Shown here: positions 53,431 to 58,445 of the stretch, piece after piece
Layout: each line of letters starts with the position of its first letter
Numbering within the stretch: position 1 is the stretch's first letter
Assembly: GCF_900010725.2 (NCBI RefSeq)
Contig: NZ_LR734869.1
Coordinates: 353,672-417,671 of the forward strand
Direction: 5' to 3'
Length of the DNA: 64,000 nt
From: Planktothrix serta PCC 8927
GTDB taxonomy: Bacteria > Cyanobacteriota > Cyanobacteriia > Cyanobacteriales > Microcoleaceae
The notes under the pieces: model-generated
Databases searched by the model: none
What the model was told of the DNA's origin: nothing
Seen by the model: the letters and a program-made list of their open reading frames with translations, nothing else
Made by a program: the position numbers and the translations under genes

Positions 53431-53780
53431 AAGCAGAAATATAGCAATTTTAAAGAGATTTTACAATCCTAATAATCAGGATGATTAATCTTAAAAAATT
53501 GACACAAACCCCTGTGTAGGGGCGAGGCGCGCCTCGCCCCTACGATTTTGGTAATTTGTACAAATGATTTAGACTTACTATAGCAATCCTAAAGGGTAGG
53601 GGTGGCGTCCCTCCCAACCCTCTTAGCTCTCACCCACCTGGGAATACAATTTCTGGGCGGGTTCATAATTTTATGTTAAAACAGAGGTGAATTCTGGACA
53701 ATAGGGTTTAAAATTAAACTGAATCGCAGGAAATTGAGAATTTTTAACCTCGTATCGTGTGTATAGTAGGAGTTTTATTG
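53431..53780. other. Intergenic region with palindromes
   Basis: Holds the perfect palindrome at 53516 and a looser G-rich one at about 53597. An AGGAG at 53769 serves the CHAT gene. No other gene is seen. Confidence 0.6.
53516..53543. repeat. Perfect 28-bp palindrome, GTAG...CTAC
   Basis: Left half GTAGGGGCGAGGCG followed by its exact reverse complement. Confidence 0.95.
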
Positions 53781-55451
53781 ATGAGTAGTGCCAGTCGCAA
53801 GAAAAAAACGATTTTATTTTTAGCCGCAAATCCTGAATCTTCTTGCCAGTTACGTTTAGATAAAGAAGTTAGAGAAATCGAAGAAGGATTAAAACGATCT
53901 CAAAAAAGATCAAAATTTAAGTTAGAGAAAAGATCCGCAGTCACACCCAAAGATATGCAGCGTGCTATCTTAGACTTAAATCCTCAAATTATTCACTTTT
54001 CCGGTCATGGAGTCGGAAAGGGTGGGTTAGAGTTAGAAGATGAACAGGGACAAGTCAAACTGGTGAGTGCTGAAGCGTTAGGGCGTTTATTTGAACTGTT
54101 TAAAGAACAGATAGAATGTGTGGTTTTAAATGCTTGTTACTCAGAAGTTCAAGCCCAAGCTATTGTTAAGTATATTCCTCATGTAATTGGGATGAAACAG
54201 GCAGTGAGTGATCAGGCTGCTATTGCATTTGCAATGGGATTTTATGATGCTTTAGGGGCGGGAAAAGACTATAATTTTGCTTATAAATCAGGCTGTACGA
54301 GTATTAGTATGGCAGGAATTAATGAGGGACTAAACCCGATTATTAAACGACAAGATGATTTAGAATCTCCGAGCATTCAAAAACCTGGTTTATCGAAAAT
54401 ATCCTCCACAACAATAACGAATTTTTCTGATATTTTAGATAGTCCTGAAGGGTCAGTGAGTTTAGATTCTCCCCTTTATATTGAACGTCCTCCCATTGAA
54501 GCAGATTGTTATGAAACCATCTTAAAAACAGGGGCATTAATTAGAATTAAAGCTCCCCGACAGATGGGAAAAACTTCTTTAATGCAGCGTATTCTTAACA
54601 CCGCTAAACAACAGCAACATCAAACGGCTTATCTAAATTTTCAAGAATTTGATCATGATTCTCTCAATAGTCTTGATTTGTTTTTACAGGGATTTTGTGC
54701 TAATGTTGCTAATGGGTTAGAATTAGAGGATAAATTATCGGATTTTTGGAAAGGAGGTTTAGGGAGTAAAACCAAATGTAGTAACTATTTTCAACGGTAT
54801 TTATTGACAACAATTTCTCAACCCTTAACCCTGGGATTAGATGAAGTGGATCAGGTGTTTCAACATCTTGAAATTGCTCAAGAATTTTTTGCGTTACTGC
54901 GAACTTGGCACGAAAAGGGCAAAAATGAACCTGTATGGCAACGTTTACGGCTAGTAATTGCCCATTCTAAAGAAGTTTATATTCCCTTAAATATTAATCA
55001 ATCTCCCTTTAATGTGGGTTTACCGATTGAATTACCAGAATTAACGGTAGAACAAGTTACAGATTTAGTCAAACGACATGGTTTAAGCTGGTCAAAATTA
55101 GAAATAGACAGTTTAATGGGAATGGTAGATGGACACCCGTATTTAGTCAGAAAAGCGTTGTATGAAATGGCGCGATCGCGTTTAACTTTAGAAGAATTTA
55201 TCACAATTTCTCCTACTGAAGAAGGGTTATATAGTGATCATTTACGTCGTCTTTTATCTAACTTAAATCAAAATGATGGAGAATTAGCTAATGCGATGAA
55301 AAAAGTTGTTGCTTCGGAGAATCCTGTGCGGTTAGAAGGCAATTTAGGCTTTAAACTGAGAAGTATGGGTTTAGTTAAATTTCGGGGAAATGATGTGATT
55401 CCGTTGTGTAATCTTTATCGGCTTTATTTTAGCGATCGCTTGGGGGTATAA
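53781..55451 (+). CDS. CHAT protease domain fused to AAA-like (STAND-type) ATPase
   Basis: 556 aa from the ATG at 53781 with AGGAG eight bases upstream; a GTG at 53757 lacks one. Residues about 8-185 are a CHAT caspase-like domain with catalytic His76 (IIHFSGHG) and Cys119 (VVLNACYS). Residues about 225-556 are an AAA-like domain: [19 protein letters not shown], Walker A variant [15 protein letters not shown], Walker [13 protein letters not shown], and a winged-helix-like end. CHAT proteases cleave partners in prokaryotic conflict systems. It overlaps the following AAA-WD40 gene by one base, so the two form one module. Cytosolic. Confidence 0.88.
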
Positions 55452-58060
55452 TGATGAATAATAATCCCCCATCTCGCTATGATTATCAAGTCGGGGGGAG
55501 TCTTCCCGTTGATGCTCCTACCTATATTAAAAGATTGGCTGATCAGGAATTTTACGACGCTTTAAAACAGGGAGAATTTTGCTATGTTCTCAACTGTCGT
55601 CAGATGGGAAAATCCAGTTTAAGGGTGCAAACCAGACGGCGGTTAGAGGATGAAGGATATGCTTGTGTGGCGATTGATATTACCGCCATTGGAACTTTAG
55701 AAATCACCCCCGAACAGTGGTATCGAGGGATGATTGAAGAAATTAGTAATAGCTTAGAATTATATACGGAATTTGACTCGGAGGAATGGTGGGAAAATCA
55801 TCAACATTTATCGTTTACTCAACGGTTTGGCAGGTTTTTAGAAGACATTCTTCTGAAATTAATTACAAAACCGATTGTGATTTTTATTGATGAAATTGAT
55901 AGTATTTTAAGTTTACCGTTTAAAATTGATGACTTTTTTGCCTTAATTCGAGAGTGTTATAATCATCGTGCTGATCAACCGATTTATCAACGGTTAACCT
56001 TTGCCTTATTAGGGGTGACAACGCCACCGGATTTAATTCAAGATAAACGACGCACCCCGTTTAATATTGGTCGAGGGATAGAATTAACCGGATTTCAATT
56101 AACAGAATCTCATCGCCTCGCCGATGGATTTATAGATCAAACTGATAACCCTGAAAAGGTATTAGAAGCGGTGTTAAATTGGACTGGAGGACAACCGTTT
56201 TTAACGCAAAAACTCTGTAAATTAATTCGGGAAACGGAGCAGAAAATTCCCTTAAATAAAGAGACAGAATGGGTGGAAAATTTAGTTCAAGACCGAATTA
56301 TTACCAACTGGGAAGGACAGGACACTCCCGAACATTTAAGAACAATTCGAGATCGGATTCTACGTTCAGGACATCAACGCACGGGACGACTTCTCGGACT
56401 CTATCAACAAATTTTACAACAACAGGGAATTGCTGCGGAAGATAACCCCGATCAAGTGATGTTGCGACTATCGGGATTAGTGGTAAAACAGCAGGGAAAA
56501 CTCAACGTTTATAATCAAATTTATGCAACGGTTTTTAATTTAACTTGGGTAGAAAAAGCCTTAGCAGATTTACGACCCTACTCAGAAGCGTTTAGTGCTT
56601 GGGAAAAGTCAGGACGTCAGGATGAGTCACGGTTATTGCAGGGGGAAGCGTTAAAAGAAGCGAAAAAATGGGCTGAGGGAAAAAGCCTGAGTAGTGAAGA
56701 TTATCAATATTTAGCCGCGAGTGAAGAATTAGATAAACGGGCGATGCAAGCGGAATTAGAGGCTCAAAAACAAGCCAATGAAATTTTAGTTAATGCCCAA
56801 CAGGAAGCTAATATTATCATCCAAGAGGCTCAAAGGAAACAGAAACAAGCTGAAGCCGCCGTCAAAGCAGCAGAATTAAAATTGGCAGCTACAGAAGTTA
56901 GATTAAAAGCGTCTTCTGCACGGGAATTATTCAGTCAGGGTCAAGGATTATTAGCATTAAAAGAAGCTTTAACCGCAGCCCAACAACTCAAAAAATTAGA
57001 TCCTTCTGTTTGGAAAAAAAATAATACCCGTTGGCAAACCGTCACCACCCTTCAAAAAATGTTATGTGACATCAGAGAGCGGAATAGCTGGAAGGGCCAT
57101 GAGGATTGGATCTGGAGTGTGAGTTGGAGTCCCGACGGCCAAACCCTCGCTTCTGGGAGTGGTGACAACACCATTAAGCTGTGGAGTCGAGAGGGTCAAC
57201 TGTTGCACACTCTCAACGGCCATGAGGATTCGGTTTGGAGTGTGAGTTGGAGTCCCGACGGCCAAACCCTGGCTTCTGGGAGTGATGACAACACCATTAA
57301 GCTGTGGAGTCGAGAGGGTCAACTGTTGCACACTCTCCAAAGCCATGAGAGTTGGGTCATCAGTGTGAGTTGGAGTCCCGACGGTCAAACCCTGGCTTCT
57401 GGGAGTGTTGACAAGACTATTAAGCTGTGGAGTCGAGAGGGTCAACTGTTGCACACTCTCAACGACTATAAGAATTCGGTCTATAGTGTGAGTTGGAGTC
57501 CCGACGGCCAAACCCTGGCTTCTGGGAGTGGTGACAAGACTATTAAGCTGTGGAGTCGAAAGGGTCAACTGTTGCACACTCTCAACGGCCATGAGGATTG
57601 GGTCAGGAGTGTGAGTTGGAGTCCCGACGGCCAAACCCTCGCTTCTGGGAGTTTTGACAACACCATTAAGCTGTGGAGTCAAGGGGGTCAACTGTTGCAG
57701 ACTCTCAACGGCTATGAGAGTTCATTCAGCAGTGTGAGTTGGAGTCCCGACGGTAAAACCCTGGCTTCTGGGAGTGAAGACAAGACCATTAAGCTGTGGT
57801 GGAGTCGAGAGGGTCAACTGTTGCGGACTCTCAACGGCCATAAGTATTGGGTCTGGAGTGTGAGTTGGAGTCCTGACGGCCAAACCTTGGCTTCTGGGAG
57901 TCATGACAACACCATCAAACTGTGGAATTTTGATTTGGATCAATTAATGGTATCGGCTTGTAAGTGGATGAAGGATTATCTGGAGAATAGTTCGAGTGTG
58001 AGTGAGGAGGACAGACATTTGTGTGATGGGGTGACGGTGAAGCAGAATTCTAAGCCTTGA
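55451..58060 (+). CDS. AAA-like ATPase with seven WD40 repeats
   Basis: 869 aa. Residues about 10-330 form the AAA-like domain: [20 protein letters not shown], Walker A variant [14 protein letters not shown], Walker [32 protein letters not shown] coiled coil runs about 430-480 ([20 protein letters not shown]). Residues about 541-830 are seven WD40 blades of 41 residues, all built on [15 protein letters not shown] and TIKLWS. Blade six has one extra Trp. The start ATGATG overlaps the stop of the CHAT gene (TAATG). It is the likely sensor and scaffold of the pair. Confidence 0.92.
57091..57930 (+). repeat. Tandem 123-bp DNA repeats encoding the WD40 blades
   Basis: Seven units with nearly identical cores, e.g. 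AGTGTGAGTTGGAGTCCCGA and CTTCTGGGAGT. The identity extends to silent positions, pointing to recent amplification or ongoing conversion. Confidence 0.92.
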
Positions 58061-58190
58061 AATAAATTTCAGGCTTAAAGCTCAAACCCGTTAAAACGGG
58101 TTAATAAAATCAAGTCTTGAGTTATCTTTAGATAACGTTAGCTTTCAGCCCGAACTTTAGTTCAGGGCATTAACCGTTTAAGTTGACATC
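58055..58190 (+). repeat. Hairpin-chain repeat, copy 1
   Basis: About 136 bp, repeated at 58238 (183-bp offset). It strings together small hairpins: TGAAA-TAAA-TTTCA, AACCCGT-TAAA-ACGGGTT, GTTATC-TTTA-GATAAC and GAAC-TTTA-GTTC. Starts just before the stop of the WD40 gene. Confidence 0.92.
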
Positions 58191-58237
58191 CTTACCGTTG
58201 TAAATTTGTTAAAATCGATTAAGAAAAATAACAAAAT

Positions 58238-58373
58238 CCTTGAAATAAATTTCAGGCTTAAAGCTCAAACCCGTTAAAACGGGTTAATAAAATCAAATCT
58301 TGAGTTATCTTTAGATAACGTTAGCTTTTAGCCCGAACTTTAGTTCAGGGCATTAATCATTTAAGTTGACACC
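58238..58373 (+). repeat. Hairpin-chain repeat, copy 2
   Basis: Matches copy 1 with a few mismatches; all four hairpins are kept. Lies between the WD40 gene and the HyuA/HyuB fusion gene. Confidence 0.92.
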
Positions 58374-58445
58374 CAGACCCCAAACCCTTAAAAATTAGTC
58401 CTATAAATATAGATAAAGTCTAAAAATAATCATTAAAATTAGCTC

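Follow-up and report, generated by a model that had tools for sequence, protein, structure and literature searches.

Do two overlapping genes of Planktothrix serta PCC 8927, one joining a CHAT protease to an ATPase and the other joining a related ATPase to a WD40 propeller, form a conflict system, or do they belong to a more general signalling machinery? The original prediction, made from the DNA letters, proposed a candidate conflict system. The pair lies in the window, by which we mean the whole stretch of 64,000 nucleotides that was analysed, and its features are as follows.

53768..53772 (+): Shine-Dalgarno-like AGGAG, with the ATG of gene A 8 nt further on (sequence reading)
53781..55451 (+): gene A (gene 1, P0001), coding for the CHAT-AAA_35 protein of 556 aa; start conserved in orthologs
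53817..54269 (+): CHAT protease domain, residues 13-163 of protein A (Pfam PF12770, 3e-12)
54006..54008 (+): codon of His76, predicted catalytic His, SGHG motif
54135..54137 (+): codon of Cys119, predicted catalytic Cys, NACYS motif
54444..55433 (+): AAA_35 domain of protein A, residues 222-551, a STAND-like ATPase with winged helix (PF14516, 6.7e-142)
54552..54578 (+): Walker A of protein A, residues 258-266 (G263 and K264 invariant)
54828..54845 (+): Walker B of protein A, its last residues D354 and E355, intact in the window (motif reading)
55449..55453 (+): TAATG stop/start overlap of genes A and B (sequence reading)
55451..58060 (+): gene B (gene 2, P0002), coding for the AAA_35-coiled coil-WD40 protein of 869 aa (Pfam and reading frame)
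55496..56536 (+): AAA_35 domain of protein B, residues 16-362 (PF14516, 9.6e-36; motif counts; Foldseek)
56693..56935 (+): coiled-coil segment of protein B, residues ~415-495 (AF2 helices 415-460 and 467-495)
57089..57952 (+): WD40 propeller of protein B, seven-bladed and WRAP-like, residues 547-834 (Pfam, seven WD40 stretches)

The CHAT domain of protein A scored 47 bits against a Pfam cut-off of 24, and it matched the SAVED-CHAT protease in structure (Foldseek, 8tl0, 4.8e-12) and in sequence (phmmer, 7.5e-15). His76 and Cys119 line up with the dyad of SAVED-CHAT and were invariant across 36 aligned homologues of 43-88% identity. A low-confidence linker separates the CHAT domain from the AAA_35 domain, which reached 472.6 bits in Pfam and gave Foldseek matches to 2fna, 2qen, NLR and ORC structures.

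The TAA of gene A (55449-55451) shares one base with the ATG of gene B (55451-55453). The AAA_35 domain of protein B scored lower in Pfam (123.7 bits) and has an intact Walker A and an intact Walker B (FIDEID). The AF2 models, computed as single chains with pLDDT of 87.5 for protein A and 85.8 for protein B, matched the archaeal STAND-like ATPases 2fna and 2qen, plant NLRs, ORC and Avs3/Avs4 in Foldseek. Both proteins thus show the architecture of STAND NTPases, with a P-loop carrying Walker A and B, a winged helix, and sensor or effector domains. The original prediction had read this anatomy correctly, from the intact His76/Cys119 (numbering included) on a CHAT domain fused to an AAA-like ATPase to the one-base overlap with a second gene coding for a related AAA domain, a coiled coil and a WD40 propeller. 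Outside the genes, two tandem 136-nt copies (58061-58196 and 58244-58379), 95% identical and with internal palindromes, lie 3' of the pair, and a near-perfect GC-rich palindrome, GTAGGGGCGAGGCGCGCCTCGCCCCTAC, lies upstream at 53515-53544 and may be a terminator-like or repeat element.

Through a search of GTDB genomes, 80 CHAT-AAA_35 loci were found, every one of them cyanobacterial. Three were uninformative and left out, and an adjacent AAA_35 partner (B) was present at 72 of the remaining 77, as expected if the pair recurs in cyanobacterial genomes. Over the 80 loci, B was located downstream on the same strand at 65 and upstream at four, and it was frameshifted or at a contig edge at three; five loci had no B. 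In the class, an A-type match was detected in 257 of 390 genomes, and a full-length CHAT-AAA_35 protein in at least 39 of them. The P. serta genome itself contained 24 AAA_35 matches. By Pfam score these separate into A domains, which score high (about 230-500 bits), and B domains, which score low (about 70-125 bits); six of the eight A genes in this genome adjoin a B gene.

Within Planktothrix, the CHAT-AAA_35 pair was found in three of ten genomes, at different sites. The copies of two genus-mates (G001 and G002) are 87-89% identical to that of the window; the hydantoinase neighbour of the pair is kept in G002, and in P. rubescens, the nearest named match, the pair sits elsewhere. Because of this patchy presence and the different site in P. 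rubescens, the pair is an accessory locus. Purifying selection acts on both genes between three Planktothrix species (omega 0.11-0.28, referring to CHAT and both AAA domains), which together with the wide recurrence argues against a chance arrangement. Compared with P. rubescens (L185), dS was 0.51 in the CHAT part and 0.19 in the AAA core, a ratio of about 2.6, and this hints at recombination, exchange or gene conversion between modules. A phage origin was rejected, as a comparison of the pair with 50,697 phage records yielded nothing.

In the tree, the AAA_35 domains of A and B formed two separate clades with a support of 100, and therefore A and B became partners before the module swaps described below. 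The A and B distances within genomes were correlated (r = 0.84, 0/5000 permutations, 26 pairs from five genomes), also after removal of the most divergent pair (r = 0.66, 6/5000 permutations). This supports contact between the two domains without proving it, because linked duplication could give the same correlation. The proposed partnership of the two AAA domains is strengthened by both the clades and the co-variation. The Walker B Glu is kept in 49/49 nonredundant B domains versus 36/55 nonredundant A domains, being lost in 19/55 of the latter. Judged from these motifs, protein B looks like the active ATPase and protein A like a follower, though the A of the window has an intact Walker B.

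Among the blade positions of 19 AAA_35B propellers, 25, 6, 7, 9 and 27 varied most. Per site and blade pair, nonsynonymous differences amounted to 0.66 and synonymous ones to 0.03 at positions 7, 9, 25 and 27, and at the positions outside these four the values were 0.08 and 0.12. The propeller in the window, of which 2YMU is the best PDB match, has a mean blade identity of 71% with codons conserved outside the hot spots, the mark of recent blade amplification, and its seven quartets at these positions are all distinct (WWGN, SWDN, WIVK, SYGK, WRFN, SSEK and WWHN). Codons 7, 9, 25 and 27 are under positive selection in the propellers of the Podospora hnwd (HET) genes of non-self recognition (PMC2873952), and the variable positions of the AAA_35B propellers coincide with them, position 6 being additional. 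The hypervariable blades are the strongest evidence that the pair may recognise a variable partner.

We consider it slightly more probable than even (about 0.52) that the pair is a heteromeric STAND-type sensor/effector switch, a CHAT variant of the WRAP-family AAA_35 pairs compared below, causing growth arrest or death. Protein B would be the receptor, and the upper face of its propeller, diversified blade by blade, would bind a variable trigger. Binding, which in the copy of the window would probably occur in the cytosol, may release nucleotide exchange in the intact ATPase of B, and B would then assemble with protein A through the AAA_35 domain that is its cognate there. The CHAT domains clustered in this way could become an active protease that cuts one or more cellular targets, and the cleavage would lead the cell to growth arrest or death.

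The same chassis carries many other modules. Protein A may bear CHAT, TIR, CHAT-TIR, a Ser/Thr kinase (L045, L052, L195, L197, L198), a class III cyclase (L027, L043, L051, L042), CHAT plus cyclase, or GGDEF (L028); other versions have just a short helical or HTH-like region, and in L026 and L186 no output was recognised. Two Planktothrix genomes (L043, L051) contain a 62%-identical A core with a cyclase in place of CHAT. The C-terminal modules of protein B include WD40, TPR, GUN4, type I periplasmic-binding protein, CHASE2, Trypsin/COP23, peptidoglycan-binding, histidine kinase and a second CHAT. Since the modules are swapped on each protein, A can be assigned as the output side and B as the sensing side. 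The idea that the WD40 end of protein B is the sensor part agrees with these swaps as well as with the hypervariable blades. CHAT as the effector holds in that it is one of several interchangeable outputs, but it shares its chassis with cyclase, GGDEF, kinase and HTH versions. Because the swapped outputs and sensors include second-messenger and metabolite types, the AAA_35 chassis is not conflict-specific.

Some single loci were also recorded. In the P. serta genome, the AAA_35 pair at L031 (contig C13, 4253-10538) is divergent: its B bears HEPN_Swt1 together with a dynamin-like GTPase, and after the pair come a small GTPase-like gene and a further AAA_35-like gene. This locus may be a conflict system of another type that uses the AAA_35 chassis. 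The same genome has a TIR-AAA_35 gene (L029, C6) whose partner, close to a transposase-like gene, is broken up over several frames, and two tandem, closely similar AAA_35B genes with no A gene adjoining (L035, C49:123706-127956). On a plasmid of Nostoc sp. HK-01, L221 (1637-12154) consists of a CHAT-TIR-AAA_35 gene and an AAA_35-GUN4-PG_binding gene, and its neighbours are two restriction genes, one for a type II enzyme and one of type III, and a caspase (Peptidase_C14)-FGE-sulfatase gene. Another plasmid locus, L222 (2461-4488), has an AAA_35B domain fused to a histidine kinase (HisKA-HATPase_c); a NACHT gene and a pair with CHAT-TIR-AAA_35 lie beside it.

Around the copies, no defence-island signal was detected among 125 flanking genes, which were mostly housekeeping in a raw tally without matched control. 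Enrichment in defence islands, which had been suggested as a check, was thus not borne out in general, though several plasmid copies adjoin restriction enzymes, a NACHT gene, or toxin-antitoxin and integrase genes.

With such outputs as GGDEF, cyclase and kinase, or none recognised, with GUN4, periplasmic-binding, CHASE2, peptidoglycan-binding and histidine kinase modules on B, and with housekeeping flanks, the pairs might instead be a physiological relay. AAA_35 pairs would then be a general sensor-to-output chassis, and the CHAT version would perform regulated proteolysis on an internal or external cue, likened to a caspase with non-death roles. We regard this as possible, though on the doubtful side: the propeller is hypervariable at recognition positions, which is unusual for a housekeeping cue, blade number shifts between sister species, and the pair is patchy within the genus. 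The notion of a conflict system draws support from the CHAT and TIR outputs, the hypervariable sensor, the patchiness and the plasmid copies next to restriction, NACHT or toxin-antitoxin genes, but it does not describe the general meaning of the chassis. We might speculate, as a tentative suggestion, that bacteria have in the AAA_35 A/B pairs a relay distinct from two-component systems and running alongside them: exchangeable, often extracytoplasmic sensors on a single-pass B would drive exchangeable cytoplasmic outputs on the cognate A via ATPase-ATPase assembly, and pairs combining a hypervariable propeller with CHAT or TIR would have become innate immune receptors.

Hydropathy revealed a single hydrophobic helix between AAA_35B and the C-terminal module in 54/58 CHAT-type relatives, with a K/R excess N-terminal of the helix in 47 of these 54 and the reverse in one. 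Because of this transmembrane helix, the K/R bias, and the periplasmic-binding, CHASE2 and peptidoglycan-binding modules, the sensor of the relatives is predicted to be outside the cytoplasm. The sister species have RATLIGLISGVAFAVAFVAFVGVTIAVREA at the slot where the B of the window has a charged coiled coil. The coiled coil first predicted for protein B agrees with the AF2 helices of this copy, but the slot is a transmembrane helix in almost all relatives. As the usual membrane helix is absent, the sensor of the B in the window is probably in the cytosol, making it an unusual soluble copy. The B of the window also has seven blades versus 14 in P. rubescens, and two sister-species orthologs have the membrane helix and about 14 blades. 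Having neither the helix nor half of the blades of its orthologs, it may work differently, which counts against the conflict switch.

An extracytoplasmic propeller in most relatives, with variable blade positions that are exactly those of the fungal HNWD codons, would also fit recognition of self versus non-self (allorecognition) or toxin-like kin discrimination, the model being fungal HET-E/HET-D, where the propeller senses a polymorphic cellular partner and not phage. We judge this improbable, as no polymorphic partner locus was identified and the copy of the window is predicted to be cytosolic. That the pair is a decaying copy, no longer functional after losing the membrane helix and seven blades that its two sister-species orthologs keep, is very improbable even with other copies visibly broken (L040, L029, L141), for both frames are open, omega is low on all three domains, and the start/stop coupling and the catalytic residues are intact.

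Among known systems, those in PADLOC were rejected, since no complete defence system was matched and protein A received partial CHAT models and nothing more. In the open literature searched, the accession PF14516 was absent and a text search for AAA_35 gave chance matches only; nor did this literature, which excludes subscription papers, turn out to describe how broad the swapping is, the asymmetry between A and B, the membrane topology or the agreement in hypervariable positions. The VMAP/iSTAND ternary systems (Kaur et al. 2020, PMC7159879; PMC8195603) are alike in swapping NTPase-coupled effectors and sensors and in occurring in multicellular bacteria, but they differ from the pair of the window, which has no MoxR, vWA or VMAP gene; a VMAP/MoxR ternary system was rejected because these domains were found neither in the two proteins nor in the Pfam-scanned flanking ORFs. 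PMC7159879 mentions neither CHAT nor AAA_35.

The SAVED-CHAT protease (PDB 8tl0) shares with protein A the CHAT fold and the same His and Cys motifs, and its activation by assembly is a likeness to the switch proposed here. The pair differs in having no SAVED domain and no cyclic-nucleotide input, its switch being the AAA_35 ATPase. Two-component systems are similar in their separate sensor and output proteins, their often extracytoplasmic sensors and their swapped outputs, whereas the AAA_35 pairs are proposed to signal through paired ATPases and not through phosphotransfer. The natural module swaps open this sensor-to-effector coupling to direct testing.

The APAF-1 apoptosome and the fungal HET-E/HET-D NLRs place an NTPase and a WD40 sensor over a caspase-like or death effector, as proposed here, and the pair would be a compact two-gene bacterial counterpart of apoptosome/NLR logic. 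It differs in that separate polypeptides carry the effector and the sensor, and each of the two has an ATPase; these ATPases are archaeal-ATPase/ORC-like STAND (2fna, 2qen) and not NB-ARC or NACHT by Pfam. The hypervariable blade positions shared by AAA_35B propellers and fungal HNWD (PMC2873952) suggest one solution to the diversification of propeller receptors in bacteria and in fungal non-self recognition.

The closest known system is the WRAP operon. In the passage on it in PMC9218822, WRAP couples a STAND-WD40 gene to a TIR-STAND gene, in some cases with an added caspase domain, and is said to have been proposed as bacterial innate immunity (citing Dunin-Horkawicz, Kopec and Lupas 2014). 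This is the operon of Nostoc punctiforme (Npun_R6612), and 2YMU comes from WRAP. Our comparison ran on WRAP homologues from other Nostoc genomes. These WRAP-like loci (L219/L220) had 84-86% identity to 2YMU over the blades and AAA_35 in both genes. Like the pair of the window, WRAP couples two STAND ATPase genes, and in the downstream gene the WD40 propeller has been amplified recently; in both cases an effector-STAND gene is joined with a STAND-WD40 gene of the same ATPase family. The WRAP partner carries TIR, or caspase plus TIR, whereas that of the window has CHAT alone; the WRAP-type A domain belongs to another subfamily (score 333 versus about 500 with the local profile); and WRAP has 14 near-identical blades, compared with seven diversified blades and no membrane helix in the window. 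Since the WRAP-like loci have AAA_35 in both genes and CHAT-TIR-AAA_35 proteins exist (L221, L222), we place the pair of the window as a CHAT variant of the WRAP kind. The original statement that no description of this exact two-gene arrangement was known is hard to maintain, as the published WRAP operon is of the same AAA_35 pair family, and WRAP, an immune-like operon published but little followed, becomes tied to a large and mostly undescribed cyanobacterial family of paired ATPases.
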